Assembly (NCBI RefSeq): GCF_947492455.1
Contig: NZ_CANLNB010000001.1
Location: 434,001 to 498,000 of the forward strand
Source: an uncultured Aliiroseovarius sp.
Lineage (GTDB): Bacteria; Pseudomonadota; Alphaproteobacteria; Rhodobacterales; Rhodobacteraceae
Length of the DNA stretch: 64,000 nucleotides
Direction: 5' to 3'
Every line of letters starts with the position of its first letter. Position 1 is the first letter of the stretch. Of the stretch, positions 17,088 through 34,729 are shown one piece after another. A program made the position numbers and the translations under genes. The notes below the pieces were generated by a model. It was given only the letters and a program-made list of their open reading frames with translations, was not told where the DNA came from and ran no database searches.

Positions 17088-17119
17088 TAAAGCGCGCCAC
17101 CACGACGCGGCGCGCTTTA
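17088..17119. terminator. Shared hairpin between convergent genes
   Basis: An 11-bp stem (TAAAGCGCGCC with its complement) around a 10-nt loop ends the IalB-like transcript. It also includes the TAA stop codon of the autotransporter on the other strand. Confidence 0.75.
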
Positions 17120-20100: not shown

Positions 20101-23100
20101 GCGCCATGATCCCGAACGCATTCGCGCCATAGGTCACGACCCAGCTGTCATTCTCGACATTTACGTCGCCGCCATTGCCAGCCGCGCCGCCGTCACCGCC
20201 CATCGTCAACACGCGCGAGCGGTTCTGCGGGCCGTCCGGCTGGTTGGTGTCTTCCTTTCCAGCAAAGATCGTGACGGCTTTCGAGTTGCCACCCGCGCCG
20301 CCGCCGCCGCCGATGGACTGCGCCATAACGCCGTGCGAACTCAGGCCGAATGTGTTCACAACTCCGTCGATGTCGACGTTTACCGCGCCGCCATGTGCGC
20401 CGGTCCCGCCTTGACCGCCGATCCCGACGGCCACCGCAAGATTGCGGGCGGGATCGCCGTTCTGACCGTTCGCGGGGGTTGTGGCGCGTGTCATGGCCAA
20501 TGCCGACCCGCCTGCACCACCACCGCCGCCAATCGACTGCGCCAGTACACCTTCCGAGAACGCCCCCGTGGTCAGAAGATATCCCGCATGGGCCACATGG
20601 ACCGCGCCGCCGATATTGCCTACACCACCTGCACCACCGATGGCGAAGGCGTATTGGTTCGTATCGCCTCCGCGTCCCATCGCTGCACTGCCGGAGAAGC
20701 CACCCGCGCCACCACCGCCGCCGATGGACTGGGCTTGGATGCCACGGCTGAAAATACCTTGAGTGTATAGTGCAGCGGTGTTGGTGACCGAGACCCGGTC
20801 TGCAAAGCCGCCATCGCCGCCGTCGCCGCCCAGCGACAGACCAAATGCAGTGCTATCCGCCCCCGAGAAGGCAAGCGACAGGGCTTGGTTGGCTGTACCG
20901 CCGCCACCGCCGATAGATTGGGCCAAGATTGCATGAGAGTTCGCCGCCAGCGTGGTAATACCCGCTTGGTTCTGCACTTCGACGGTGCCAGCGTGGTTGC
21001 CGTCGCCTCCGGACCCGCCAAGGCCCACGAAGAATTGCTTCGCGCCCGACCCAGCTTTCTTCGCAACGATGCTGCCCGCCACGGCCTGTCCGCCGTTGCC
21101 ACCGCCGCCGCCGATGGATTGGGCTGTGATACCGTGACTACGTGTGCCACCGGTCGAGATCGACGCCGTGTTTGTGACGGAAACGCCCGAGGCATAGCCG
21201 CCCGTCACGCCTGATCCACCGCCTGCCAGAGCCAGTTGTGTTGCTTCATTATCCAAGGCGAAGTTGAACGCCATCGCGCCGCCGCCCGAACCGCCGCCGC
21301 CGCCCAGCGACAGCGCGCTGATGCCGATCGCATCTGCGCCACGCGTCAGGATCGCACCGTGAGAGGCCACGTCTACCGTGCCGCCAAAATGCCCGGTGCC
21401 ACCATTGCCACCCAGCTGCAGGTTAAGCGTTTTGCCATCGTCGAACGATCCGGCAAAGGCGCCTGCAAAGCCGCCGGTGCCGCCCCCGCCGCCCACGGCG
21501 TGCGCCATGATGCCTCCGCTGCCATCCGCGGCTGTGTCGATCACGCTGTTCGACACCACCGAGACCGCGCCGGAATGTCCGCCGCTGCCGCCCGTGCCGC
21601 CAAGCGTCACCGCAACACCATTGGATTTCGAGGACAGTGCCAGCCCGATATTCACCCCGGCATTACCACCACCGCCGCCAATCGACCGCGCCACGATCCC
21701 GGCTGCGTTCACGCCTTGCGTGACGACATGTCCGTTCGACACGATCCGCACATTGCCCGCGCGCGATCCGGTGCCGCCATCGGCGCCCAGTTGCAGCGAC
21801 AGAGCGTTCGATTTCGACAGCGCACCAGACAGGTGCAAGTTCGCCGAGCCGCCGCCACCGCCAATGCTTTCCGCCACGATGCCCGCGCTGCCTGCGCCGG
21901 CTGTGTAGATGTTGGCGTGCAGCTCTTCCAGCGTGACGGCGCCACCAGCGCCGCCCGATCCGCCGCGACCGCCCATGGTCAGGCTCAGCCCGGCACCGCT
22001 GGTGCCCTGCGCGGCCATTGTGAAGCTGCCATTGCCACCTCCGCCACCGATGGATTGCGCGCGGATCGCGGCCGCGTCATCGCCGCGTGTGTATATGCCG
22101 ATCAACGCGCCCGCCGCGCCGACTTGCCCGGTGACCGTGCCAGCATTGCCGCCAGCCCCGCCGCTCGAACCCATGGACAGGCTGCCGCCAGCCCCTTTGT
22201 TGCCGCCGCCCGCGATGATGTAGGATCCGTTGCCGCCGCCGCCGCCAATCGATTGCAGTTGCACTGCGTCGGCGCCTTGGCCGTGTGTTTGCAAGAGCGT
22301 GCCACCGCCCACGGTTCCGGTTTGGATCAGCGCCACGTTGCTGCCTGCGCCGCCGATGCCGCCAGTGGCCCCGATGGTCAGGCTGGCCGCGGCCGATCCA
22401 GCAGCCCGCAGCGACAACGTGCCGCCTGCCATGCCGCCACCACCGCCGACGGATTGCGCCAAAAGCGCCTGCGCGCCTTCACCGGATGTCGAGATGCTGC
22501 CCGAATTGGTGACGTAGACTGCACCGCCATTGCCGCCATTTCCACCGCTGCCACCCAGTGCAAGGGTCAGCGCATTGCCCGAGGTCGCCGACAAGCTGCC
22601 CGCAGACCCCGCCGTGCCGCCGCCACCGCCGATGGACTGTGCGACCAGCCCGCCCGCGCGGTCACCCAGCGTGAACAGGTCCCCGGTGTTGTAAACCGTC
22701 ACCAGCCCGCCCGCGCCGCCGCTGCCGGCGTTGCCACCAAGGCTAACGGTTGCCGCACGGCCTGAACTGGCCGTTCCGCCCAGCGTGAAGCCGCCATTGC
22801 CGCCCCCGCCACCGATGGATTGGACGCGCAGGGCCGCGCTGTCATTGCCATAGGTTCGGATTTGCGCGGTTTGCGTCACCGAGACGCTGCCGCCATAGGC
22901 GCCGCCCGATGCGCTGCCGCCCAAGCGCAGCGAGGCCGAGTTGCCGCCGCCTGCCAGACCTGCGGACATGCCGCCATTTCCGCCGCCGCCGCCGATGGAC
23001 TGCGCTAGCAACCCGTCTGACTGCACGCCGCCCGTTGTGATGTCGCCAGTGTTCGTCACCTCGACCGAGCCGCCTTGCACCGCACCTGCGCCAGCACCTC

Positions 23101-26100
23101 CAATGGTCACGCCCATGCTGGCAGATCTGGCCAGCGTGCCGCCGATGGTGAAGCCTCCGTTTCCGCCGCCTCCTCCGATCGACTGCGCCGCAAGGCCCAT
23201 TGCGAAATCACCCGCTGTGATGATGCTGGCTGCGTTGGTCACGCCGACAAAGCTACCCGCACCGCCTGCGCTGCCGCGCCCGCCGATGCCCACATTGGCA
23301 GAAGCGGTTCTGCTGAAGCTGCCAGTGATGGCGAAGCCACCGTTGCCGCCGCCTCCGCCAATGGATTGCGCCAGAATACCGGCCGAGTGATCGCCCAGCG
23401 TCAGCAGCTGGCCTTCGGCACTGACCTGCACCGATCCGGCCGATCCGCCAGAGGCACCTCGCCCGCCAAGGGCGAAGCCTCCGTTCGCGGTCGAGGACAC
23501 ACCCGCCTTGGCCGAGAAGCCGCCATTGCCGCCGCCACCGCCGATGGATTGCGCAAGGATCGCCCCCGAGAAGCTGCCTGCAGTGCTGATGTCTTTATAG
23601 CTTTCCAAGGTCACGCTGCTGCCCGCGCCACCTGCGCCGCCCGCACCACCCAGCGCCACGTTCAACGCTGCCGTGCCTGCGTTCAGGCCGCCCGAGACTG
23701 CAAAGCCGCCATTGCCGCCGCCGCCGCCGATGGACTGTACTGACAGACCCGTGGCGTGATCGCCCAGCGTGGTGACCGATGCGCGGCTGGTCAAAGACAC
23801 GGTGCTGCCATTGGCGCCCGTGCCGCCGGATCCGCCCATCGCCATGCCCGCGGTAAACGCGCTGTTCGAGGCATCCGCCCCGATGGCAAAGCCGCCATTG
23901 CCGCCGCCTCCGCCGATGGATTGCGCAAGGACGCCGACCGAGCCGTCGCCTTCGGTGCGGATGGATGTGTCAAACGTCGTTGTGCCCAGCGAAACCGCGA
24001 CCGCGCCACCGATCTGGCCATTGCCACCCGATCCGCCCATCGCCAGCGTCGCCCGGTTGCCGCCAAAGCCGCCGGACAGGGCGAAGCCGCCATTGCCGCC
24101 ACCGCCACCCACGGATTGCGCCACAAGACCGTGGGACATGTCGCCTGTGGTAAGAATGCTTTCGGTTACGCTCGCGGTGACATATCCGCCGCGACCGCCG
24201 ATGCTGGCAGAGCCGCCGAAGGCCATCGTCGCGCTGCCGGTGCCAGCATTCGCGCTGGAGGCCGAGAAGCCGCCATTGCCGCCACCGCCACCGATGGATT
24301 GGGCAAGAATGGCCGTCGAGTTGTCGCCATAGGTTTCGATGTTGCGATCCGGAATGGCCGAGTTCGCCACGATGACGTCAACCCGTCCGCCATGTCCGCC
24401 AATGCCTCCAGCCCCGCCGAAGCCCAGCCCGACCGAGCCCGTCGCTGCAAAGCTGCCCGAGCTGGACATGCCACCATTTCCGCCGCCGCCACCGATGGAT
24501 TGTGCCACCAGCGCATTGGCGTTGTCACCAAAGGTCCATGCGCCGTTCGAAGCGCGCAGATCGACCCGTGCGCCGTTGCCTCCGACGCCGCCGGATCCCC
24601 CGATGCTGGCGGTTGCGCTGGCGGTGAAGCTGGCCGAGGCGCTGATCGCCATGCCGCCGTCTCCGCCGCCGCCGCCGATGGATTGGGCCAAAACGCCAGT
24701 CGCGCCGTCGCCTTGTGTCAGAACCAGCCCGGCTGCGTTGGTCCAAACGTCTGCGCCATGACCGCCGCCGCCGCCACGTCCACCAAGGGACAGGCTGCCT
24801 GATACGGTTCCAGATAGCGCGCCTGCGATAGCCATGCCGCCACGACCACCCCCGCCGCCAATGGATTGCGCCACAAGGCCCGAGGACATATCGCCCGCCG
24901 TGACAATGGCGCCATTCGCGGTCACCGACACGCGCTGGGATGTGCCGCCATCGCCGCCTGCTCCGCCAAGGGCGACCGACAGCGCCCCTTTGCCCGAGGC
25001 ACCTGCCGCAAGGGCCATCCCGCCATTTCCGCCGCCGCCGCCAAGCGATTGGGCCAAGATCCCCGTGGCGTGGTCGCCTTGGGTGCCGATCCGGTCATAT
25101 GTGGTGACGGTGACGGTCCGTCCGCCGCCACCAGCACCTGCGTTGCCGCCCACGGCCACCGACAGACTGCCCCCGCCACTGGCCGCACCTGTAACCGCGA
25201 AGCCGCCATTGCCGCCGCCGCCGCCGATGGACTGCGCCACGATCCCGTGGGCGCCGTCACCTGCGGTGTCGATTTGACCGCGCGACGTCACCGTGACGTG
25301 GCTGCCATAGGTGCCCAATGCGCCGCTGCCGCCCAAGGCCAGAGATCCAGCCCCAGCGCCGCCAAAGCTTTGCGCCATCGAGTGCCCGCCATTTCCGCCA
25401 CCCCCACCGATGGACTGCGCTACGATGCCCGAGGACATCAGCCCGGCAGTAGCAATGTTTCCGTGGCTGTCGACGTTGACATTTGCGCCGTTTCCACCAC
25501 GTCCGCCGCTGCCACCAAGCGCGAAGCTCAGGCTGCCGACGCCGCTCATGGCACCTGCGAATGCGAAGCCACCGTTCCCGCCTCCGCCGCCAATGGACTG
25601 CGCCAGAATGGCCGAGGAACGGTCCCCGTAGGTGAGAAGATTGTTATATGTCGTGACACTTACGTTTCGCGCTTGGCCGCCTGTCTCGCCCGATCCGCCC
25701 AGCGCGAAGCTGAGGGCGCCGGTTGTGGCCGCTGATCCCGAAATCGCATAGCCGCCGCTACCTCCGCCACCGCCCAGTGATTGCGCGCGGACGGCGCTGG
25801 ACCAGTCGCCTTCGGTCCGGATGTTGCCGCGATAGGCAACGTTCACGCTGCCTGCGCCGCCTCCGACGCCGCCATTGGCGCCGATCGCAAACGCGACTGA
25901 AAAGCCTGCACCGAACGAACTGGACTTCGCCCCGCCGCCATTGCCGCCGCCGCCGCCGATGGACTGCGCCAGAATGCCGTCCGCGTAATCTCCGCGTGTG
26001 GTGATGTTGGCCAACCCGCTAAATCCGCCGGTGTTCGTGACCTGAACAGAGGACCCGTAGCCGCCAAATCCGCCGCTGCCACCCATTGCGAAGGACGCAA

Positions 26101-27967
26101 AGGCGCCGCTTGACGTGGCCGAGCCGCCGGTGCCTCCGCCCCCGCCAATGCTTTGTGCCGAGATCCCCGTGGCATAGCGCCCCCAAGTCGAGATCAGGCC
26201 GTCATTGTGGACGTTGGTGCGTTCGCCATTCCCACCAGCTCCGCCACGCCCACCGATGGCCGCCATGCCACTGGCATTGCCGCCGTGACCGCCCCCGCCG
26301 CCGATGGATTGGGCGAAGATGCCGATCGCGTCCTGCCCGGCCGTATAGATAGCGCCTGTGTTTACAACAGTAACGACACCCGACGACCCGGCCGAATTGC
26401 CGGCGCCCCCAAGCGCGCCCGCACCGTTGGCATTGCCGCCTACGCCGCCGCCACCGCCAATGGATTGCGCCAAAATGCCGTGGCTGCGTAGCCCCCAATG
26501 GGTGTTGATCGTGCCGCGGTTGGTTACTGAGACGCCCCAGCCATTGCCGCCCAATCCGCCGGTACCGCCAATGGCATAGGCCCCATCCGCCGCGCCGCCC
26601 GCACCGCCGCCACCGCCAATGGACTGTGCCAAGATCCCGACCGCATCATAGCCGCCCGAGGTGTTGATCGAGGCGTTGTTCGTGACGGTCACGCCGCGCC
26701 CGTCACCGCCTGACAGGCCATTGCCGCCTGCCGAGAACAGATAGCCGCCCGACCCGCCCGACCCTGCAAAGCCACCAATGGACTGCGCCAGAATGCCGTT
26801 GGCGCCCGCACCGCGTGTCACGATGCTGGCCCAGTTTTGGTTGGTTACCCGCACGAAGTTCCCACGCGAGGCGGAACCACCTGATCCACCAGAGCCGTAC
26901 ACCCAGCCACCGTTCCCGCCCAGACCGCCACCGCCACCCAGCGATTGTGCCACGATCCCTGAGGATCGGAACCCATAGGTGCTGATCGAGGCCATGTTGT
27001 TCAGAACAACGTATTCGCCGCGCCCACCGATGCCGCCACGCCCGCCGCCGCCGAAGAGCGTCCCGTTGTGCCCGTTGCCGCCATTGCCACCCTGACTGCG
27101 CATCAGGATCCCGGCTGCATCTTGGCCATGCGTGGTGATACGGCCCTGGATGATTGCACCAAGCGTACCGCCGCGCCCACCTGGCCCTCCGGACGTGCTG
27201 TCGCTTGATCCGCCGGATCCGTGTCCCCCCGCGCTTGCCATGACAACGCCGTGCCCGCGGTCCCCGGAGGTTACGATCTGGAACACGTTGCCAGCCGCCC
27301 AGTTTGCGTATTGGGCATTGGTACGGTCATGACCGAAGTCATGCACCGTGTCGTCGTAATAGATCGCCCCGTCGCCCGGACCACGTGTCGGGAAAGAGTT
27401 GTCGATCCGCAGGGACAAATCGCTTCCAGAGAAGCCGAAGCGCTCATCAAGGTAGGGGAAGTTCAGATCCCCTTGCATTAAAAACGCACCATACGAGCTG
27501 AGCTCAACCGCAGAGGCGCCGACACCGTTGGCGCCAATGTATCGACCAGCCCCATCCGGAAGAAGCCGTGCCTCGAAATCGTGGCCATAGTCTAGATATG
27601 GCTGCGCATAGGTGAGCAGGCGAACGGCCGAGATGTTGTTGGTTACAATCGGACGATCTAGATAGGCGATCTCGATTTCCGAGAATGTGTTCGGATTAAA
27701 AGGATTGACCAGGTGCAACCCGGCCAAGGGGACATAGGTGAATGTTGGAAAGTGAACGCCGTTTGATTGATTGCCTTCGCAGAAAACCTCGACAATCGCA
27801 CCCGAGACAGGATTGCCGTCATCCTCGATACACGGATCATTGGCCCAAGCAGGGGCGCCAACCAATGCATGAAGCCCGGCCAGAAGGCCGAGTTTGGAAA
27901 CATAACATGTTAATTTAATGCCAATACCCAAGCGAAGCCCGGACACGCGCAGAAAACGTGAAATCAT
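17117..27967 (-). CDS. Giant glycine-repeat autotransporter (3616 residues)
   Basis: This type V secreted surface protein has a long signal peptide ending GAPAWA, then a passenger of about 3250 residues, and a C-terminal outer-membrane beta-barrel (about 3290-3616) ending in Phe (FRFEHAF). Residues about 230-2640 are made of roughly fifty repeats of 40-50 residues built on the motif AQSIGGGGGNGG with GD..A.GI before it and LGG.GG.GG after it, as in a repetitive beta-solenoid. A collagen-like, Pro-rich insert lies at about 2640-2760, and more repeats follow. The frame is open for 10.8 kb without a break, which argues for selection. A promoter lies just upstream. The function (adhesion, biofilm or shielding) is inference. 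Confidence 0.93.
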   Translation of the reverse strand: MISRFLRVSGLRLGIGIKLTCYVSKLGLLAGLHALVGAPAWANDPCIEDDGNPVSGAIVEVFCEGNQSNGVHFPTFTYVPLAGLHLVNPFNPNTFSEIEIAYLDRPIVTNNISAVRLLTYAQPYLDYGHDFEARLLPDGAGRYIGANGVGASAVELSSYGAFLMQGDLNFPYLDERFGFSGSDLSLRIDNSFPTRGPGDGAIYYDDTVHDFGHDRTNAQYANWAAGNVFQIVTSGDRGHGVVMASAGGHGSGGSSDSTSGGPGGRGGTLGAIIQGRITTHGQDAAGILMRSQGGNGGNGHNGTLFGGGGRGGIGGRGEYVVLNNMASISTYGFRSSGIVAQSLGGGGGLGGNGGWVYGSGGSGGSASRGNFVRVTNQNWASIVTRGAGANGILAQSIGGFAGSGGSGGYLFSAGGNGLSGGDGRGVTVTNNASINTSGGYDAVGILAQSIGGGGGAGGAADGAYAIGGTGGLGGNGWGVSVTNRGTINTHWGLRSHGILAQSIGGGGGVGGNANGAGALGGAGNSAGSSGVVTVVNTGAIYTAGQDAIGIFAQSIGGGGGHGGNASGMAAIGGRGGAGGNGERTNVHNDGLISTWGRYATGISAQSIGGGGGTGGSATSSGAFASFAMGGSGGFGGYGSSVQVTNTGGFSGLANITTRGDYADGILAQSIGGGGGNGGGAKSSSFGAGFSVAFAIGANGGVGGGAGSVNVAYRGNIRTEGDWSSAVRAQSLGGGGGSGGYAISGSAATTGALSFALGGSGETGGQARNVSVTTYNNLLTYGDRSSAILAQSIGGGGGNGGFAFAGAMSGVGSLSFALGGSGGRGGNGANVNVDSHGNIATAGLMSSGIVAQSIGGGGGNGGHSMAQSFGGAGAGSLALGGSGALGTYGSHVTVTSRGQIDTAGDGAHGIVAQSIGGGGGNGGFAVTGAASGGGSLSVAVGGNAGAGGGGRTVTVTTYDRIGTQGDHATGILAQSLGGGGGNGGMALAAGASGKGALSVALGGAGGDGGTSQRVSVTANGAIVTAGDMSSGLVAQSIGGGGGRGGMAIAGALSGTVSGSLSLGGRGGGGGHGADVWTNAAGLVLTQGDGATGVLAQSIGGGGGDGGMAISASASFTASATASIGGSGGVGGNGARVDLRASNGAWTFGDNANALVAQSIGGGGGNGGMSSSGSFAATGSVGLGFGGAGGIGGHGGRVDVIVANSAIPDRNIETYGDNSTAILAQSIGGGGGNGGFSASSANAGTGSATMAFGGSASIGGRGGYVTASVTESILTTGDMSHGLVAQSVGGGGGNGGFALSGGFGGNRATLAMGGSGGNGQIGGAVAVSLGTTTFDTSIRTEGDGSVGVLAQSIGGGGGNGGFAIGADASNSAFTAGMAMGGSGGTGANGSTVSLTSRASVTTLGDHATGLSVQSIGGGGGNGGFAVSGGLNAGTAALNVALGGAGGAGGAGSSVTLESYKDISTAGSFSGAILAQSIGGGGGNGGFSAKAGVSSTANGGFALGGRGASGGSAGSVQVSAEGQLLTLGDHSAGILAQSIGGGGGNGGFAITGSFSRTASANVGIGGRGSAGGAGSFVGVTNAASIITAGDFAMGLAAQSIGGGGGNGGFTIGGTLARSASMGVTIGGAGAGAVQGGSVEVTNTGDITTGGVQSDGLLAQSIGGGGGNGGMSAGLAGGGNSASLRLGGSASGGAYGGSVSVTQTAQIRTYGNDSAALRVQSIGGGGGNGGFTLGGTASSGRAATVSLGGNAGSGGAGGLVTVYNTGDLFTLGDRAGGLVAQSIGGGGGTAGSAGSLSATSGNALTLALGGSGGNGGNGGAVYVTNSGSISTSGEGAQALLAQSVGGGGGMAGGTLSLRAAGSAAASLTIGATGGIGGAGSNVALIQTGTVGGGTLLQTHGQGADAVQLQSIGGGGGNGSYIIAGGGNKGAGGSLSMGSSGGAGGNAGTVTGQVGAAGALIGIYTRGDDAAAIRAQSIGGGGGNGSFTMAAQGTSGAGLSLTMGGRGGSGGAGGAVTLEELHANIYTAGAGSAGIVAESIGGGGGSANLHLSGALSKSNALSLQLGADGGTGSRAGNVRIVSNGHVVTQGVNAAGIVARSIGGGGGNAGVNIGLALSSKSNGVAVTLGGTGGSGGHSGAVSVVSNSVIDTAADGSGGIMAHAVGGGGGTGGFAGAFAGSFDDGKTLNLQLGGNGGTGHFGGTVDVASHGAILTRGADAIGISALSLGGGGGSGGGAMAFNFALDNEATQLALAGGGSGVTGGYASGVSVTNTASISTGGTRSHGITAQSIGGGGGNGGQAVAGSIVAKKAGSGAKQFFVGLGGSGGDGNHAGTVEVQNQAGITTLAANSHAILAQSIGGGGGTANQALSLAFSGADSTAFGLSLGGDGGDGGFADRVSVTNTAALYTQGIFSRGIQAQSIGGGGGAGGFSGSAAMGRGGDTNQYAFAIGGAGGVGNIGGAVHVAHAGYLLTTGAFSEGVLAQSIGGGGGAGGSALAMTRATTPANGQNGDPARNLAVAVGIGGQGGTGAHGGAVNVDIDGVVNTFGLSSHGVMAQSIGGGGGAGGNSKAVTIFAGKEDTNQPDGPQNRSRVLTMGGDGGAAGNGGDVNVENDSWVVTYGANAFGIMAQSVGGGGGVGGHGEHGKPTIDELVAIGGDLVANLPTIPALPAFPSVGSTPGLPGAPGLPGLPTMPNFTNLPDLPSLKDLGGLPGLNGITVPGLPGLPGLPGLPAVANLPEAPDVPGLPPAPEPPEAPEAPEAEDEEDGVSRFEIAVGGRGGASGDGGLVTVANRGNVMALGEGAIGVFAQSVGGGGGLGGYGAVGETGTIGLGGSGGAGGNGGDVLVTNDGLILTAGTAGYGIFAQSVGGGGGMAGNVDRGVAGEENTDALAFGASGGAGGNGGDVTVISNGAIVTLGDGATAIFAQSVGGGGGLLGQVGDGRGLVGSTGAVGTAGNVLVDHTGTIITAGDGAHGIFATALDGNGAPSGSVTVNYSGDITVLGKGAHAILAQTTAIGGPANRVEIGIGKGSTVTGGTDTATVSLVGGTDNSLTNEGQLQSSGGLDATVIEAQSGNDVITNAGIFVGTFDLGAGQNLFDNQDGGLMLLGAQSHLHDSSAGASGLLRNAGELSFGDTGYLNYAALIAAYDPVARPATLDDLYLTGDFQQTTTGTTFIDLDFGTRTADHLINTGTANWDGTLSVLTYNATHLRSGISRATFSSASGGADMGGLTLDIAPSAIVDYQITALSANALAVEWEVDFAPEDANFNRNETSLGEHLNAAFVDGAPTGLQGLSQALFWVPEASLLPPLYDTMNADVYAARKASDHRGLLGFAERFGRCEMSDEMSSCLTFSFGSEKGFRSGDVEYQDQTTARASGQLSAARILDSGARLGFGFDFGAHGTGHTNTGASATGRHLRLGLSYDVARYGVDWGFGLAAGQASSDVTRFPFIGGETEGVLNTSSIALSVRAGKQFDLAQGLFVRPGAHLSLGKTSAQATSETGGDLALALEHSADWFVVFTPSIELGFDGPMQDGCRAQCTTVTGGLKLSRQTYLGNRSASSVGRFVASPTDSDPFTVTDALEDSWAVEASVGLEFAPLTSAEIVAERRWLGNSTSHSFGFRFEHAF
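19680..20030 (-). other. Collagen-like / Pro-rich insert inside the autotransporter
   Basis: The repeat solenoid is interrupted by a segment with G-x-P periodicity, for example PGLPGAPGLPGLP and VPGLPGLPGLPGLP, ending in a Pro/Glu-rich acidic run (APEPPEAPEAPEAEDEED). It looks like a flexible or triple-helix-like spacer between the main solenoid and the distal repeats. Confidence 0.7.
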
Positions 27968-28200: not shown

Positions 28201-29610
28201 TCAGAACGTATAGTCCAGACCGACGGTTACACCCAAAGCGTTCCAATCGGTGCCGCCGTCCATGAAGACTGCGCCGTTGATCAGCAGGTTGTTGTCGGTG
28301 GCATAGTCCAGACCGATTTCAATCCGGCCCGAGTGGCCTTCGGTCACCACCGCAGCGGCACCGCCATTGCTGACATCGAAGGTCCAGATCGACGAAGCGC
28401 TAAGGTTTGCCGTCAGAGTCGCGCCGTTGCCTGCATCGAAGCTGCGCGAAATCGTCGGGCCGATCTCGAACGATCCAAAGGATGTGCTCATCGGGGCAAC
28501 AAGGATATTGTTGCTGTCCAGATACGCATCAGAGGTTTCCTCGAACCAGGACAGGCGTGCTTCGGGTTGGATGGTCAGATCGCCGACCTGAAAATCACCA
28601 ATCAGGGCAGCGGTGGCCAGCCAGCGTTCCGCGCTCACCGTATCGGTGTAGGTCCCGAAGGGCGAAACGTCGTTGGTCGAGCGACCCCAAGCGACGCGGG
28701 CATCGAAATACAGGTTATCCTGAATGCGCTTGGTCACGTACGGGCCAACCATAAAGCCGTTGCCCGAGATCTCGGCGCCGCCACCGCTCAGGCGTGCGTT
28801 GTCGAGCTGCAGGCCCAGACCGATCAGAAGGTCAGGGTTCACCAGACGGTCAACACCCATGTGGATGATGTTGAAGTTACCATCCATGTTCCCAGCCGAG
28901 AACTTGGCATGCGCGGCTTCGATCCACAGATCATAAGGCGACGTCCGAGCAATGGTGTTGGAGGCCGCCAGGAAGGTGCCACCAGCAGCAGCTTCGCCTT
29001 CGGGTGCGGCGCTGTTGCGGCTGGCAACGTCACCTGCGGCACCAGTATTGCGGCTACGGCTGTTCAGACGGCCAACGCGGCGTTCAAGGTTCGGACCGTT
29101 TTGCAGGATCAGACGGCCACGTGCCTCGGACAGCGTCGCAACAAGTTCTTGCGCTTCGCCAGCGGGGTCGATGACGTTGATATTGATGAACCGCGATGTC
29201 GCACAGGACCCAACGTCACAATAGGTCGTGATAACAATTTGGTGCGCGCCGGGCGCCGTATTGGCGGGAATAACAACCGATGTGTTCACTGACCGTGTAA
29301 CGGTGCCATTGACTGACGGCTCCGAGCCAGAGGCCAGCAAAGTTACGCCATCAAGATAGATTTCCCAAGGCGCGGGCGGCGCATGTCCTGCGTGCCAGAT
29401 CTCGTAGTCAAACCCGATGTCAATCGTGTCACCAGCAATGCCCGTCGTGGTCGAGCTGGTGACGTTTTCCATCCCGTAAATACTGTGCGCATCCGCGTTG
29501 GTCGCGCCGAACAGGCCAACGGCCATCACTGCGGCAAGCATGCGCATCCCTTTGAACAAGCTGGACAAACCCTTCCATCCCAGCACGTTCATTCTTTGTT
29601 TTGTGGCCAT
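28201..29610 (-). CDS. Autotransporter-type outer-membrane beta-barrel protein
   Basis: This 469-residue protein has an N-terminal signal peptide (hydrophobic stretch around 24-40, cut after ADA, next to HSIYG). A short domain with an Ig-like beta pattern follows (about 42-150, with the Cys pair in YCDVGSCATS). A linker comes next, and then a beta-barrel of about 260 residues that alternates hydrophobic and polar residues and ends in YTF. The C-terminal Phe is the usual outer-membrane insertion signal. The passenger is very small for an autotransporter. Two starts are possible (29610 and 29592); neither has a strong ribosome site. Confidence 0.85.
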   Translation of the reverse strand: MATKQRMNVLGWKGLSSLFKGMRMLAAVMAVGLFGATNADAHSIYGMENVTSSTTTGIAGDTIDIGFDYEIWHAGHAPPAPWEIYLDGVTLLASGSEPSVNGTVTRSVNTSVVIPANTAPGAHQIVITTYCDVGSCATSRFININVIDPAGEAQELVATLSEARGRLILQNGPNLERRVGRLNSRSRNTGAAGDVASRNSAAPEGEAAAGGTFLAASNTIARTSPYDLWIEAAHAKFSAGNMDGNFNIIHMGVDRLVNPDLLIGLGLQLDNARLSGGGAEISGNGFMVGPYVTKRIQDNLYFDARVAWGRSTNDVSPFGTYTDTVSAERWLATAALIGDFQVGDLTIQPEARLSWFEETSDAYLDSNNILVAPMSTSFGSFEIGPTISRSFDAGNGATLTANLSASSIWTFDVSNGGAAAVVTEGHSGRIEIGLDYATDNNLLINGAVFMDGGTDWNALGVTVGLDYTF

Positions 29611-29965: not shown

Positions 29966-30352
29966 CTATTTGACGCGAGTCAGGTCCCAAAATGCACCTT
30001 CGCGAAACATCCGCAGCACAATCGGGGCCGATTTAGGGGCTGAAATCCCAACGGCGGCGAATTTGTTAGGAGGTGTGAACTGCAGGTCAAGGTCGGTCTG
30101 GGTGGTGCCATCCACCAGCAGCGCGTCGATGGTGATGTTCTGTGCGTCGCGCGGCTCCAGATTTAGATCATACAGATAGATCGCGATTTCGTCGTCTGAC
30201 CGGACCAGCTCGATATGGTTGTGCTGGGTCACATGCACCACGCCACCATTCTTCCCGTTGTGATCGGGGCTTTATTGCGCGATGGCTGCACCAATCATGA
30301 ACTGAGAGAATACGAGTGTTGCGAACAGTTTCGTGATCTTGGGCAGGAACAT
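29966..30352 (-). pseudogene. Secreted small protein broken by an in-frame stop
   Basis: Reading from the ATG at 30352 gives a typical signal peptide (MFLPKITKLFATLVFSQFMI then GAAIAQ) and then TAA at 30274-30272. The same frame continues without another stop to 29966 as SPDHNGKNGGVVHVTQHNHI and beyond, 102 more residues. So one stop codon splits the export signal from its mature domain, exactly at the expected cleavage site. The mature part (HVTQHNHIELVR, IAIYLYDLNLEP, TPPNKFAAVG) resembles small metal-efflux-associated periplasmic domains, a weak resemblance. Either the gene is dead, or the base is a sequencing error. Downstream of the sensor kinase gene on the same strand. Confidence 0.7.
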
Positions 30353-30491: not shown

Positions 30492-31847
30492 TCACAGAGC
30501 ATCAGCCTGCGTGGCCTCGGGCGCTGCAAGACACACTTTCACGCCGCCCAATTCGGATTGATCCAGCGACAGGGTGCAGCCATGGGCCTGTGCCATGCGC
30601 TGTGCAATGCTCAGCCCCAAGCCCGTGCCCGGCTGTTCTGGGTCCAGTCGCGCCCCGCGTGCCAGCACCGCATCGCGGTCTTCCTCGGGGATGCCGGGGC
30701 CGTCATCTTCGATGCACAAGCGCACACCTGTGCCGTCCTGTTCGCCCCGCACGGCAATGCGGCTGTCCGACCACTTCACCGCATTGTCCAGCAGGTTGCC
30801 CAACAGTTCGGTCAGGTCGTACTCGTCAAAGGGCAGGTACAGGGGGCGGGGCAGGTCGATGTCCCACTGAATGTGCTCGGCACCGGGCTGGCGGCCAAGT
30901 GCCTTGTGCAGGCGGTCAATGATCGGACCCGCGTCGCAGTTCAACAGCGCCTGCTGGCTGTCGCGGGTCGAGGCCAGCTCCCGTTCGACAATGTGCTGAA
31001 TGCTGGTGATTTCCGTCATCAGATCATCGGCAAGCTTGTCTTGGTCCGCGCGCCGCACCTTGCGCTCGATCCCGTGCATGATTGTCAGGGGGGTCTTCAG
31101 GCCGTGGGCCAGATCCCCCGCGCGTGAGCGCGCGCGCTCCAGCGCCTCGGCGTTGACGTTCAGAAGTTGGTTTACCTCTTCGACCAGCGGCAGAACTTCG
31201 GAGGGATAATCCGACGACAACCGCCCGTTTGGGGTGTGCGAGACGCGGGCGATCTCGGATCGGATCTTTTGCAGCGGGTTCAATCCAAGGCGCACTTGGA
31301 ACCAACTGGCGATCATCAAAAATACGCCCAAGACCCCCAGCCAGAAGACCGAGTTCGTGGTGAAACGCGCGACCGACATATCCAGATCCGCGCGGTCGAT
31401 GGCCACTGCCAGAAAGACCTCTTTCCGGGTCTCGCCTTCGCCCATCGTGATGATCCAGTTCGCGACTGCGACTGCGTCTCCGGTTCCGGTCACCACATCG
31501 ATATACGAGATCACGCCAGCGGTTTGCGGGCGGGTCAGTTCCAACGGCGCGGCCCAGAAGGATGGCGACAATAGCGGTTCGGCGTCATCGATCTGCACCT
31601 GCCAGTAATATCCGGACAGCGCCTGATTAAAGCGCGGGTCTGGAATCGGAGTGACCTCGATCGCGCCCTCGGCCGTGGCCGAGACATTCCCGCTGAGTTG
31701 GATCAGATAGGTCTCAAGCTCGTCGCGCGCGCGGTCTTCGAAATAGAGGCGGAACAAGAAGTTGAAGACAATGGCCGTGGCCACCAAGGCAATTGCCGTT
31801 GTCATGGCGGCTGCCAACAACAAGCGAAGGCTGAGGGACAGCTTCAT
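30492..31847 (-). CDS. Sensor histidine kinase (TctE/PhoQ-like)
   Basis: This 451-residue inner-membrane kinase has two membrane helices (about 8-30 and 167-187) enclosing a periplasmic sensor domain, then a HAMP-like linker (LGLNPLQKIRSEIARV). Its dimerisation helix carries His in DLAHGLKTPLTIMH, and its ATP-binding core shows LLGNLLDNAVKWS, IEDDGPGIPEED and GTGLGLSIAQRM. Its ATG overlaps the stop of the response regulator by 4 nt, so the pair is coupled. The operon context (PepSY-like protein just upstream) is common for kinases that sense cations or envelope state. Confidence 0.93.
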   Translation of the reverse strand: MKLSLSLRLLLAAAMTTAIALVATAIVFNFLFRLYFEDRARDELETYLIQLSGNVSATAEGAIEVTPIPDPRFNQALSGYYWQVQIDDAEPLLSPSFWAAPLELTRPQTAGVISYIDVVTGTGDAVAVANWIITMGEGETRKEVFLAVAIDRADLDMSVARFTTNSVFWLGVLGVFLMIASWFQVRLGLNPLQKIRSEIARVSHTPNGRLSSDYPSEVLPLVEEVNQLLNVNAEALERARSRAGDLAHGLKTPLTIMHGIERKVRRADQDKLADDLMTEITSIQHIVERELASTRDSQQALLNCDAGPIIDRLHKALGRQPGAEHIQWDIDLPRPLYLPFDEYDLTELLGNLLDNAVKWSDSRIAVRGEQDGTGVRLCIEDDGPGIPEEDRDAVLARGARLDPEQPGTGLGLSIAQRMAQAHGCTLSLDQSELGGVKVCLAAPEATQADAL

Positions 31848-32509
31848 GCCTCGTCCCCGGCGATCATGTACCCAAACCCGCGACGTGTCTCGATCACACC
31901 GCCGCCAATCTTGCGGCGCAGGCGCCCGACCAGAACCTCGACCGCGTTGCTGTCAGGTTCCTGATCTCGGTAATAGATGTTCTCGACCAGCTCTTCCTGT
32001 GTCACCACCTCGCCGCGATGGTGCAAAAGATAGTTTAGCAGGCGATATTCCAAGGGCGTGACCTTCAACGGTCGCCCGTCGACTGAAACGCGCATCTGCC
32101 GCAGATCAACGCGTAGCGACCCGGCCTCAAGGATCGTAGCTTTCTGCCCGCTGGACCGGCGCAACAGGGCGCGCAGTCGTGCGACCAGTTCTTCCATCTG
32201 GAAGGGTTTGCCCAGATAGTCATCCGCCCCGGCGTCGATGCCTTCGACCCGCTCGTTCCAGTTGGCGCGCGCGGTCAGCAGGATGACGGGCAGGTCCAGC
32301 CCCTCGTCCCGCCAAGCGCGCAATACGGACAGGCCATCGCGCTTGGGCAGACCGATGTCGAGAATTGCGGCGGCGTAGCTTTCGGTACTTCCCAGAAACC
32401 AGCCCTCTTCGCCATCATGTGCGATTTCGGGGATCAGCCCCTCACCTTCCAGAACATCGGCGATCAGCTCGGCAATTTTCTGTTCGTCTTCCACGATGAG
32501 GATACGCAT
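31844..32509 (-). CDS. OmpR/PhoB-family response regulator
   Basis: This 221-residue transcription factor has a receiver domain (MRILIVEDEQKIAELIADVL, phospho-acceptor Asp in AAILDIGLPKRDGL, Lys in YLGKPFQM) and a winged-helix DNA-binding domain (VTPLEYRLLNYLLHHRGEV, VLVGRLRRKIGGG, TRRGFGYMI). It starts with no gap after the Tat Ser/Pro-rich PepSY-like gene and overlaps the kinase gene by 4 nt. Its targets are unknown; the operon itself is the first candidate. Confidence 0.95.
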   Translation of the reverse strand: MRILIVEDEQKIAELIADVLEGEGLIPEIAHDGEEGWFLGSTESYAAAILDIGLPKRDGLSVLRAWRDEGLDLPVILLTARANWNERVEGIDAGADDYLGKPFQMEELVARLRALLRRSSGQKATILEAGSLRVDLRQMRVSVDGRPLKVTPLEYRLLNYLLHHRGEVVTQEELVENIYYRDQEPDSNAVEVLVGRLRRKIGGGVIETRRGFGYMIAGDEA

Positions 32510-33028
32510 TCAGCACTTCCGTATGCTTGTGATCCGCCCAGAACCCGCATCGACCGAAACCGACACCACCGCGCCGGACTGGTCCACGATCAAGACCCTA
32601 AAGTTTGCACGCTGTCCTGTGTCAGAAAATCCGACCTGTAGCAACTTTCCGGGCTGCTTGGATTGTACATTCTTCAAGACCTCTTGTAGCGGTCGCGCCT
32701 CGCCACGCGCAATCGCGCGTTGGGCGCGTTGATAGTCTTTACGTGAAATCTGGGCGTCGCCCGGCATGGACGAGCTTCGGCAGGTGCCCGGACCGCTGGG
32801 GCCGCTTGGAAGGCTCGCACCCGGACCGCTGGGGGTGCTAGCTGCGGAAGGTGCAGATGCTGGGCTGGCTGGGGACGGAGACGAGGCTGGGCTGGGCGAC
32901 GAGGAGGAGCTTGAAGACGCGTGCGCCTGACTCAGCCCGACCAAGCTGGGCGCCATATAGGCGCTGGCGGCCCCAAGCCCCAATCGGATCAGCGCAGCGC
33001 GGCGGGATATGCGCATGCTGCGGTTCAT
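32510..33028 (-). CDS. Tat-type Ser/Pro-rich protein with PepSY-like tail
   Basis: This 172-residue protein opens with a twin-Arg leader (ISRRAALIRLGLGAASAYM) and a hydrophobic stretch ending in SQAHASS. A low-complexity Ser/Pro/Ala linker of about 45 residues follows, and then a C-terminal domain of about 85 residues (ISRKDYQRAQRAIARGE, PLQEVLKNVQ, NFRVLIVDQSGAVVSVSVDA, ITSIRKC) that looks like PepSY. PepSY domains are extracytoplasmic and often sit beside two-component systems. The leader closely resembles that of the 34391-34729 protein. The start overlaps the stop of the HprK-PqqD gene by 4 nt. Export by Tat is inference. Confidence 0.78.
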   Translation of the reverse strand: MNRSMRISRRAALIRLGLGAASAYMAPSLVGLSQAHASSSSSSSPSPASSPSPASPASAPSAASTPSGPGASLPSGPSGPGTCRSSSMPGDAQISRKDYQRAQRAIARGEARPLQEVLKNVQSKQPGKLLQVGFSDTGQRANFRVLIVDQSGAVVSVSVDAGSGRITSIRKC

Positions 33029-34266
33029 TGTGCGGCCACAGTGTGGGGAACGGGGGTGATCAGTCGCGCCTGTGTCAGACTGCGCATCAGGTTTTCGCTA
33101 TCCGCGGCAATCTGGTCGACGGGCACGTTTGGGAACGCTTCGGACAGGATCTCGACGACTTCGCCCAGATCGGTCGGTTCTTCCAGCAGGTCCCAGATCG
33201 CGGCCGAGACCGGGTTCAGGCGGAAAATGCCGATGCCCGAGCCGTCGGCCAGAAACGCTTCGTCCCCCACCACGCTTTCGGTCACACCTTCGGCCTGTGC
33301 GTAACATAGCTCTTTCACGAAGGCGATTGCGGGATAGATCGGCTGGTCCAGCGGGGCCTGACGGTCATCGCGCGCAAGATCGGTCAGTTGGGCGGCGGGC
33401 AGGGTCGCCAAATCGGGATGCGCGGACAGATATGCGGCAGCCTCTTCAGCGCAATGGTAAGTCAGCCGATAGATCGGCAAGTGGCGCGTTAAAAGGTCGA
33501 TCGAGTGCAGGATCGCCCCGGCATGACGCGTGCGTGCGAAATTCTGAGTGATCAGGCTGGCCAGCGCGTCCTCGCGCGCCATCGGGCTAAGCTGTGGCGG
33601 CTGCGGATCGTCGCTGCGCTCAAGCATCACCATAGCGCCCAAAGGCAGCGCCTCGCCCCACGGGGCAACGGGCGCGTTGGCAAGGTACTTGTACTGGCGG
33701 TTCGACAGGCCTTGATCTTGCGCGACATCGGCATGAAAGGCGTCACTGAAGCCATCAGGCAGAGGCAGACGTAAGCGTGGCTGAATGCCGTTCGCAATGC
33801 CCACACAGCTTTGGGTCGTCGCATCTACGCGGACGGGCAAAAAGTCGTCGGAATACAAGGGTTTCCCCAGACGCGCCAAAGCAATCGCAAGAGTGCTTTT
33901 TCCGGCGCGTCTGGCATTTGGCATCACCACAAGACGCCCATGAAACTCGATCGCTGCGGCATGCAGACACAGAAGATTCGGGTCGGAGCGAAGCCGCTCC
34001 CACGCCATTTCAGCGACGATATCGCAGACCGTGTTAACCCCGTCCCATATCTGCACCGTGTCAGGCTGATCCGCATGAATCACCTCCCAATGGTCTGGCC
34101 CGGCAGGGCGGATCGTTATGAATGGCGGCTCAGTTGGGGGCGTTGTCAGAATGTGGTGTGGCCAGGCTGTCAGGATTCTGGGCAGCATCACTGCGATTTC
34201 GTCCGCGTTTTCCAACGCGACCGGATGGGTCAATCCCTCGAACTGAATATATTGCGGTTCCACCAC
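33025..34266 (-). CDS. HprK-like kinase fused to a PqqD-like domain
   Basis: This 413-residue cytosolic protein has, at about 98-145, an HPr-kinase-like nucleotide site: LLCLHAAAIEFHGRLVVMPN, then RRAGKSTLAIALARLG and LYSDDFLPVRV. The P loop keeps AGKST but lacks the usual first glycines. Residues about 330-410 form a PqqD-like fold (GIFRLNPVSAAIWDLLEE, VVEILSEAFPNVPVDQI, LMRSLTQARLI). Family knowledge: PqqD-like domains bind peptide leaders in RiPP pathways, and HprK-related kinases modify peptides in some lasso-peptide clusters. Here the gene sits between two Ser/Pro-rich exported proteins. No radical SAM enzyme, cyclase or peptidase is nearby, so the product is unknown. Confidence 0.82.
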   Translation of the reverse strand: MVEPQYIQFEGLTHPVALENADEIAVMLPRILTAWPHHILTTPPTEPPFITIRPAGPDHWEVIHADQPDTVQIWDGVNTVCDIVAEMAWERLRSDPNLLCLHAAAIEFHGRLVVMPNARRAGKSTLAIALARLGKPLYSDDFLPVRVDATTQSCVGIANGIQPRLRLPLPDGFSDAFHADVAQDQGLSNRQYKYLANAPVAPWGEALPLGAMVMLERSDDPQPPQLSPMAREDALASLITQNFARTRHAGAILHSIDLLTRHLPIYRLTYHCAEEAAAYLSAHPDLATLPAAQLTDLARDDRQAPLDQPIYPAIAFVKELCYAQAEGVTESVVGDEAFLADGSGIGIFRLNPVSAAIWDLLEEPTDLGEVVEILSEAFPNVPVDQIAADSENLMRSLTQARLITPVPHTVAAQ

Positions 34267-34327
34267 GTTCCGCTCCTACTTGTCACTTATAACAACAGCG
34301 TTTTTCCCCCGCGCGTCAACGCAATCT

Positions 34328-34358
34328 GACCTGCCCACAAGTAGCTTGCGGGCAGGTC
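34328..34358 (-). other. Hairpin between the first Tat Ser/Pro gene and the HprK-PqqD gene
   Basis: GACCTGCCC and its complement form a perfect 9-bp stem with a 13-nt loop, 32 nt after the stop of the first Ser/Pro gene. There is no immediate T run, so it could be an RNA processing or stability element that sets more of the first product than of the rest. Confidence 0.45.
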
Positions 34359-34390
34359 GACGATCAGGTGGGGATGACCCGTATCGCGGA

Positions 34391-34729
34391 TTAGCTTTGA
34401 CAAACCTTAACACCGTCTTCGCGGGTTACGACGGTGCCCCCACCTGCTTCGCATTCCTCAGCCGTTACCACTTCGGGGCCGCTGGGCTCGGACGGAGCAC
34501 TGGGTTCCGAGGGTACACTGGGTTCGGACGGTGCACTGGGATCAGACGGCGCGCTCGGATCGGAAGGTGCGCTGGCGGGCGACGGTGCGCTTGCCGGCGA
34601 CGGAGCCGAAGATGCGTGGGCAGCCGACAGCGTGGTCAGTGCAGGTACGGAATAGGCGGCCAGTGCCAGCCCACCAATGCGGGTCAGCGCCTTGCGCCGC
34701 GATACTACCTTGTCGTCTTCTTTGGTCAT
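34391..34729 (-). CDS. Tat-type Ser/Pro-rich small protein with Cys-containing tail
   Basis: This 112-residue protein has a twin-Arg leader (VSRRKALTRIGGLALAAYSV) ending TTLSAAHASS. A repeat linker of the type SAPSPASAPS, then SAPSDPS and SAPSEPS units, is followed by a short tail (TAEECEAGGGTVVTREDG, then VKVCQS) whose two Cys residues could pair. The leader shares SRR.AL.R.G, AY, P.L, LS.AHASS with the 32510-33028 protein, so the two are related. The ribosome site is AGGACAG. It heads the operon leading into the HprK-PqqD gene. No known domain; possibly a substrate or partner of that protein. Confidence 0.75.
   Translation of the reverse strand: MTKEDDKVVSRRKALTRIGGLALAAYSVPALTTLSAAHASSAPSPASAPSPASAPSDPSAPSDPSAPSEPSVPSEPSAPSEPSGPEVVTAEECEAGGGTVVTREDGVKVCQS

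Follow-up and report, generated by a model that had tools for sequence, protein, structure and literature searches.

In a 64,000-nt stretch of DNA from an uncultured marine Aliiroseovarius sp. (assembly GCF_947492455.1, contig NZ_CANLNB010000001.1, positions 434,001 to 498,000; hereafter the window), we studied a minus-strand locus at positions 30492-34729 in which an HprK-like kinase fused to a PqqD-like domain is encoded next to a small protein with a twin-arginine translocation (Tat) signal and a Ser/Pro-rich tail. PqqD-like domains act as recognition elements (RREs) for the leaders of ribosomally synthesized and post-translationally modified peptides (RiPPs), and the sequence evidence indicates that the locus is probably a system in which an RRE guides a peptide kinase to proteins destined for Tat export. 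The core of the locus is two genes and not five, and this pairing of an enzyme with its putative substrate is found again in many other bacteria. Domain architecture, gene pairing, the leader motif and the conserved kinase and RRE residues were all computed directly. Coordinates are window positions on the minus strand, and other loci and genomes are cited by our L and G numbers.

The fusion gene is paired with a Tat-leader gene

The small Tat protein, here called TatA (34391-34729, 112 aa), is the proposed phospho-acceptor, and it precedes the 413-aa fusion, which begins with GTG (33025-34266). To determine how regularly the two occur together, we searched 295 genomes of the same family with the fusion at a threshold of 1e-5. 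Of 29 genomes that matched, 23 encode HprK-PqqD fusions, our own genome included and one copy (G123) being broken in two frames, and every one of the 23 has, upstream of the fusion, a gene for a small Tat protein whose tail is rich in Ser/Thr. In 19 of these, 70-133 nt separate the TatA stop codon from the point at which the kinase match begins, while in the remaining four the match begins within the gene or the gene is broken; at one locus (L037) part of the TatA tail reads N. The six matches that are not fusions were classified by eye: two resemble lasso-type loci (L058, L060), two are among glycosyltransferase-like genes (L059, L061), and two appear to be genuine HprK genes with an HPr gene nearby (L062, L063).

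Wider surveys gave the same pattern for full-length fusions. At class level, 55 of 385 genomes matched at 1e-10, and the 40 loci taken from 39 of them comprise four full-length fusions (L095-L098), all of them accompanied by a Tat partner, 14 kinases of the split type that have a gene for a Tat-leader protein no more than 2 kb away (downstream of the kinase in L109), 21 loci without a Tat-leader protein, and a fragment (L126) that was set aside. At phylum level, four of 299 genomes matched at 1e-20, our own among them. In both fusions from outside the class the Tat partner adjoins the kinase gene or is separated from it by no more than about 10 nt, and the fourth match (L119) is a split-type gene without one. 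A Tat-signal protein thus lies upstream in 6/6 full-length fusions from other families and another class. A first-pass annotation of the window had proposed the Ser-rich Tat proteins as partners of the fusion; this was borne out, and fusion homologues without a Tat partner, far from being the case in most genomes, occur in neither the set of 23 nor the set of six.

The reciprocal search leads to the same genomes. With a profile of the Tat leaders, 24 of the 295 family genomes matched at E < 1e-8, namely the 23 fusion genomes and G196, and the next matches reach at most 29.8 bits. G196 is 64% complete and its contig ends 281 nt after TatA; because the stub at the contig end matches the N-terminus of the fusion profile (31.8 bits), this genome also seems to have the pair. 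The informative part of the search is the 271 genomes without such a match, together with matches outside the model, such as a second array protein in L050. In a tree of 70 kinase domains, from which L044, L057 and L126 were left out, one weakly supported group of 42 rows (81/66) holds the 31 fusions in the tree and 10 of the 14 split genes with a Tat-leader protein; the only member of this group that lacks a Tat partner is a fragment, which fills 11% of the columns. By these neighbourhood counts the arrangement of TatA and fusion exceeds chance.

The 124-nt gap between TatA and the fusion holds a 14-pair hairpin (34328-34358), with a fold z of -4.7 against 60 shuffles. In 16 of 25 other TatA-kinase gaps that were measured, z was -2.0 or below; gap lengths were taken to the start of the kinase match, not the start codon, and are overestimates in L051, L052, L056 and L057. 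A terminator scan did not report the hairpin, whose presence would fit a need for more precursor than enzyme. Among five genome-contig matches (84-86% identity), four are Aliiroseovarius records. A library search with TatA returned weak low-complexity matches only. The host genome has a separate HprK-type gene besides the fusion.

Tat signals of the partner proteins carry an RRE-type motif

The Tat signal of TatA contains the sequence YSVPAL (residues 26-31, 34637-34654), and that of a second Tat protein encoded after the fusion, TatB (32510-33028, 172 aa), contains YMAPSL (residues 24-29, 32942-32959). Both conform to YxxPxL, the type of motif bound by RREs in lasso peptide leaders. Twenty-seven aligned partner leaders share R-R-x(13)-Y-x-x-P followed by A-x-A, with R7, R8, Y22, P25, A33 and A35 invariant. 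They have the twin arginines, hydrophobic stretch and A-x-A site of Tat substrates and are predicted to be exported by this route. YxxPx[hydrophobic] is present in 39/39 family leader proteins, a set that comes from G196, the 23 fusion genomes and four named Aliiroseovarius records and from which two ORFs (open reading frames) in the wrong frame had been removed. It is present also in 21/22 class-level leader proteins, a count that is not independent because the leader profile itself served to find these proteins; the one that lacks the motif is apparently a frame-shifted copy. TatA itself matches that profile, which was built partly from it, with an E value of 1.9e-19.

For comparison we took ordinary Tat leaders from our own genome and its relatives, and YxxP occurs at the corresponding place in 0/28. 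These are the top-scoring TAT_signal matches from 13 genomes, several of them mutual orthologues (loci L199-L228 without L224, which gives 29, less L213, which lacks the twin arginine). The occurrence of a putative RRE-binding YxxPx[hydrophobic] motif within Tat signals, which the first-pass annotation had not noted, is the strongest evidence for the proposed reading of the locus.

The fusion combines a PqqD-like RRE with an HprK-type kinase core

The RRE lies at residues ~335-405 of the fusion (33052-33264), where Pfam PF05402 matches residues 345-403 with an E value of 5e-13. Among profile matches in the PDB are TbiB1 (5.2e-8), 9x8z_B (1.7e-7), TfuB1 (5.9e-5) and 9x90_B (8e-5). An AlphaFold model of the domain, made with six sequences, has a mean predicted local distance difference test score (pLDDT) of 62.5, with 52-61 over residues 11-40 and 65-85 over residues 41-90. 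The five best PDB matches of this model in Foldseek are all TbiB1-leader complexes (probability 1.00, E 0.001-0.003, template modelling score to target 0.63-0.68). When the structure alignment was extended through viral contigs, no relative turned up.

We identified 9x8z_B as probably LppB, the RRE of a recently described RiPP family, because the letters of the chain fit the residue numbers quoted from PMC13381572. In LppB, D70 bonds the leader Tyr, N33 fixes the Pro kink, and I56 and Y60 line the Tyr pocket (PMC13381572). Their counterparts in the fusion are D389 (D in 26/27 fusions), N351 (N in 23 and D in four of 27), L374 (27/27) and F378 (F in 26, Y in one).

The kinase core spans residues 98-147 (33826-33975) and contains H102, the P-loop residues G122-K123-S124, and D140-D141. 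All of these, together with W35, R166, P168 and R217, are invariant in 47 aligned kinase sequences, some from loci without a Tat partner. Profile-profile comparison (hhalign) of this alignment with seven HprK proteins gave a 96.5% match (E 7.5e-10, 51 columns), and HprK structures are matched by profile at 8.8e-5 to 2.6e-4 (3tqf, 8.8e-5). With the PqqD match above, this upholds the earlier description of the protein as an HprK-PqqD fusion. In the lasso peptide kinase BsfK, the corresponding set is H-G-G-G-K-S-D-D, and changing H, the first G, K, S or either D lowers activity (PMC10368454); the fusion keeps all of these key residues except the first P-loop Gly. The best named model for the kinase part is the NCBIfam family HprK_rel_A (TIGR04352; E 1.3e-10, 40.8 bits). 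Membership in that family was rejected, as the fusion and eight relatives score 25-53 bits against a cut-off of 200, and no Pfam or NCBIfam model matched the kinase half above its curated cut-off in the members tried.

These features also bear on a different explanation, in which the fusion is a Tat proofreading chaperone. TorD-type redox-enzyme chaperones would be the model: the RRE would hold the signal and the P-loop would serve as a nucleotide switch that releases the cargo, with no covalent modification. The location of the conserved motif in the Tat signal itself, the near one-to-one pairing with Tat cargo and the loss of the first P-loop Gly in many members agree with such a role. We nonetheless consider it unlikely: H, GKS and DD are invariant throughout the 47 sequences, the cargo is mostly plain Ser-rich tails, in which nothing suggests that a cofactor has to be loaded, and known pairs of HprK-type kinase and RRE phosphorylate their substrates (PMC10368454, PMC13381572).

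Ser/Thr arrays are the candidate acceptors

The tail of TatA contains a Ser array (residues ~40-84, 34478-34612) in which S/T often occupies every third residue. There are 15 S/T pairs three residues apart, compared with 5.0 in shuffles of the tail, and such pairs exceed position shuffles (p < 0.01) in 22/27 TatA tails, or 29/37 sequences when TatB linkers are included. The residues around the array Ser/Thr differ widely (SAP, SAA, SEP, GSS, RPS, RPT). Both Ser codon families are used in 26/27 TatA tails, with 279 TCN and 231 AGY codons in all, a pattern that speaks for selection on Ser, even if a repeat unit of mixed codons could also have spread both families by duplication.

In family leader proteins the first Ser/Thr lies 14-20 residues after the motif Tyr. 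The phosphorylated S3 of LppA and S3 of BsfA lie 18 and 19 residues after the leader Tyr, as counted from the numbering in PMC13381572 and PMC10368454. One could imagine that only one early Ser, some 19 residues beyond the Tyr, is modified, possibly with a polyphosphate chain as made by LppK, and that the array is a disordered spacer or a site for another modification. LppK indeed puts several phosphates on one Ser, S3 (PMC13381572). At class level some tails have few Ser, the sole tail Ser/Thr of L104 is at Tyr+19, and 9/21 leader proteins have S/T at that position. Against this, S/T recurs every three residues along the tail in 22/27 family TatA proteins despite differing neighbours, and Tyr+19 is not a preferred S/T position in the family (11/37). 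A single acceptor is a credible minority alternative to modification along the array, though one we do not favor.

TatB and the two-component system are accessory

Downstream of the fusion are three further genes. TatB carries, after its Tat signal, a Ser/Pro linker and a PepSY-like tail (residues 114-169, 32522-32689). PepSY (PF03413) matches all seven aligned TatB proteins, at best with 7.4e-6; the window TatB, at 0.041, is below the Pfam cut-off. An OmpR/PhoP-type response regulator (31844-32509) and a sensor histidine kinase (30492-31847), whose best NCBIfam match, PhoQ, is below cut-off, follow; by Pfam and NCBIfam they are an ordinary OmpR-like and an ordinary PhoQ-like protein. The fusion and TatB genes overlap by 4 nt, as do the two regulatory genes, and TatB and the response regulator gene abut, so that the closely spaced five-gene arrangement described in the first-pass annotation was confirmed. 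Its inclusion of the two-component system in the set was not: TatB and the two regulators follow the fusion in only 7/23 family genomes (our own, L036, L038, L039, L041, L042 and L047), and the group is therefore accessory. In L042 a transposase insert interrupts TatB, ~1.2-3.2 kb past the point where the kinase match begins, and the two regulatory genes downstream remain. The four named Aliiroseovarius records also have all three genes.

If the five genes formed one dedicated signalling circuit, the kinase would tune TatB for the two-component system and TatA would be incidental. The tight overlaps in the window and the order of kinase, TatB, response regulator and sensor kinase in the seven genomes are what such a circuit would look like. 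However, the set is absent beside the pair in 16/23 genomes while TatA is present in 23/23; L053 and L056, both among the 16, have regulator-kinase pairs upstream whose similarity is only distant, and L051, L053 and L098 have genes that by eye resemble extracytoplasmic function (ECF) sigma factors. We regard a dedicated circuit as very improbable. Other distant matches to the two-component genes occur in L051 and L054.

The leader is also found on larger proteins. Two subtilases have the same Tat/YxxP leader, one beside the pair (L051:7220-8536) and one on another contig (L164:6190-7536); they match Peptidase_S8 at 4e-30 and 4.8e-24, and each has a Ser/Gly-rich stretch. Both have neighbours resembling ECF sigma and anti-sigma genes. 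In the window, the module is probably connected to envelope sensing through the TatB PepSY tail and the coupled two-component system, and the PepSY/PhoPQ-like and ECF-sigma-like neighbours point to a role in envelope stress.

Beyond the sensor kinase, the window encodes a 91-aa ORF (29966-30241) and a 469-aa protein with an autotransporter domain (28201-29610), both of which L002 and L005 retain, likewise after the sensor kinase; the 469-aa protein adjoins a 3616-aa autotransporter-like protein with GGGGNGG-type repeats (17117-27967). Among the class- and phylum-level loci, 15 alphaproteobacterial HprK-like kinases have no Tat partner (L108, L110-L115, L117, L119-L124, L127). Most have an adjacent PqqD gene, and several adjoin, by eye, RegB/RegA-like, CtrA-like or type I secretion-like genes. 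No convincing small ORF encoding a YxxP precursor was found near these 15 loci.

A proposed pathway and the points against it

The following account of how the fusion binds and phosphorylates its partners, of the sequence of events and of the system's role is an inference. In the cytoplasm, the C-terminal PqqD-like RRE would bind YxxPx[LIVMFA] late in the Tat signal of TatA or TatB. Docking would place the HprK-type domain at the N-terminus within reach of the Ser/Thr-rich region, where it would move phosphate from ATP to one or more Ser/Thr of the array. The modified protein would then be exported by the Tat system, a route that would suit a protein whose maturation has to be completed in the cytoplasm, and signal peptidase I would cut at A-x-A, taking off the Tat signal and the RRE motif together. 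A dedicated leader peptidase or exporter would be needless because the docking site would leave with the signal, and the missing protease noted in the first-pass annotation would need no special explanation. What reaches the envelope would be a phosphorylated Ser-rich peptide (TatA) or segment (the TatB linker), probably disordered.

A more elaborate version can be put forward tentatively, and we hold it somewhat more doubtful than credible. In a pathway of phospho-tagging followed by Tat export, one leader, at once Tat signal and lasso-type RRE leader, would mark proteins as unrelated as Ser-array peptides, PepSY sensor proteins and subtilases for multiple phosphorylation by the fused kinase in the cytoplasm. 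Through the three-residue spacing of Ser/Thr, the phosphates might line one face of an extended polyproline-II-like rod, giving a genetically encoded, cation-binding envelope polyphospho-protein under the control of envelope-stress regulators.

Several observations weigh against an RRE-guided kinase of Tat substrates. The first P-loop Gly (BsfK G163) is absent from the fusion and many relatives, and the HprK match rests on sequence profiles over ~50 residues because the AlphaFold model of the whole fusion is too poor (pLDDT 38.5) for any fold claim to be based on it. In the RRE, the equivalents of LppB T30, V35, V63 and F74 vary among fusions. The contact residues that do map are largely conserved in PqqD-like domains generally, so they indicate competence and not specificity. 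The leader profile was built from the 27 partner leaders, whose own scores follow by construction; it was also the means of finding the class partners, and the family ORF filter required P or A and then a hydrophobic residue close to the motif position, but not Tyr. An extra Ser-array protein, L165:6480-6929, has a leader with YVAT instead of YxxP and lies away from the kinase. Three-residue S/T spacing is not significant in 5/27 TatA tails, and 3/21 class leader proteins have only one to three tail Ser/Thr. Some arrays use Thr, and LppK gave no phosphorylation of Thr at its site (PMC13381572). Finally, the single changes Y(-17)A and L(-12)A in BsfA left phosphorylation unaffected (PMC10368454).

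If an RRE-guided kinase does act on Tat substrates, it would join RiPP leader recognition and Tat protein export, two fields that have so far been separate. RREs could then act on exported proteins, beyond small natural products, with an export signal doubling as a docking site. Periplasmic phosphoserine proteins would be predicted in Alphaproteobacteria, and a partner, along with a likely chemistry, would be assigned to kinases whose kinase half matches no family above cut-off (in the members tried). Two genes are enough to test the question directly.

Comparison with known systems

The locus has the parts expected of an RRE-guided HprK peptide kinase: a PqqD-like RRE, an HprK-type kinase with H-GKS-DD, and a nearby precursor with [Y/W]xxPx[L/V/I/F/A]. 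HPr kinase/phosphorylase shares the H, P-loop and DD region, but the match covers ~50 residues and the fusion has an extra N-terminal region and the RRE. HprK_rel_A is the best named relative of the kinase part, yet by score the fusion is not a member. The accessory genes recall FeuN-FeuP-FeuQ type sets, in which a small exported PepSY-type protein is encoded next to a response regulator and a histidine kinase; TatB differs in having a Tat/YxxP leader and a Ser-rich linker.

A lasso peptide cluster was rejected, as neither a cyclase nor a B2-type protease is found near the fusion. In the 23 genomes, asparagine-synthetase-like cyclases (PF00733) do not occur near fusions; strong matches are found only in G165 and G132, on other contigs, and the weak matches among those listed (31.5 bits or less) are not near fusions. 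B2-type proteases (PF13471) are likewise absent near the fusion in these genomes, with matches in 2/23, on other contigs (G132) or ~640 kb away (G184). Kinases of the BsfK/paeninodin type that act with a B1 RRE resemble the fusion in their H-GKS-DD kinase, the help of an RRE and a YxxPxL leader, and they phosphorylate a Ser of the precursor (PMC10368454). They differ from the system described here, in which the RRE is fused to the kinase and the leader is a Tat signal.

Along with the lasso peptide kinases, the nearest known parallel is the 'linear polyphosphorylated peptide' (LPP) RiPPs of Bacillota, reported in May 2026, in which a YxxP precursor, the RRE LppB and the HprK-like kinase LppK operate with no cyclase; a signal-peptidase-like enzyme (LppS, SpI-like) removes the leader, and the clusters encode an MsbA-like transporter and an NTP-transferase (PMC13381572). 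YxxP precursor, PqqD-like RRE and HprK-like kinase are common to both, and the chain identified here as LppB is the second-best PDB relative of the fusion RRE. An NTP_transf_5-type gene (PF14907, 3.3e-12) also occurs at L099, on the opposite strand after a split kinase and a PqqD gene, and L101 looks similar by eye. No LppS-like peptidase or exporter was noticed by eye among the called genes beside the fusions, not all of which were annotated, and no profile search aimed at such genes was made. The differences are that here the kinase and RRE are fused in one protein, the motif lies inside a Tat signal, the candidate substrates are Ser arrays, some with PepSY or subtilase domains, and the hosts are Alphaproteobacteria and one other class. 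In the main text of PMC13381572 the terms 'Tat', 'proteobacteria' and 'Pseudomonadota' do not occur.

The earlier statement that no such system had been described thus needs qualification. The principle is similar to that of the LPP family, while a Tat-linked system of this kind is not described in the open-licence literature that we searched, as judged by titles and the beginnings of abstracts. By analogy, the system would work like the LPP and lasso-kinase systems, with which it has RRE, kinase and motif in common, and as far as these searches go it is the first example of a Tat signal that incorporates an RRE motif.

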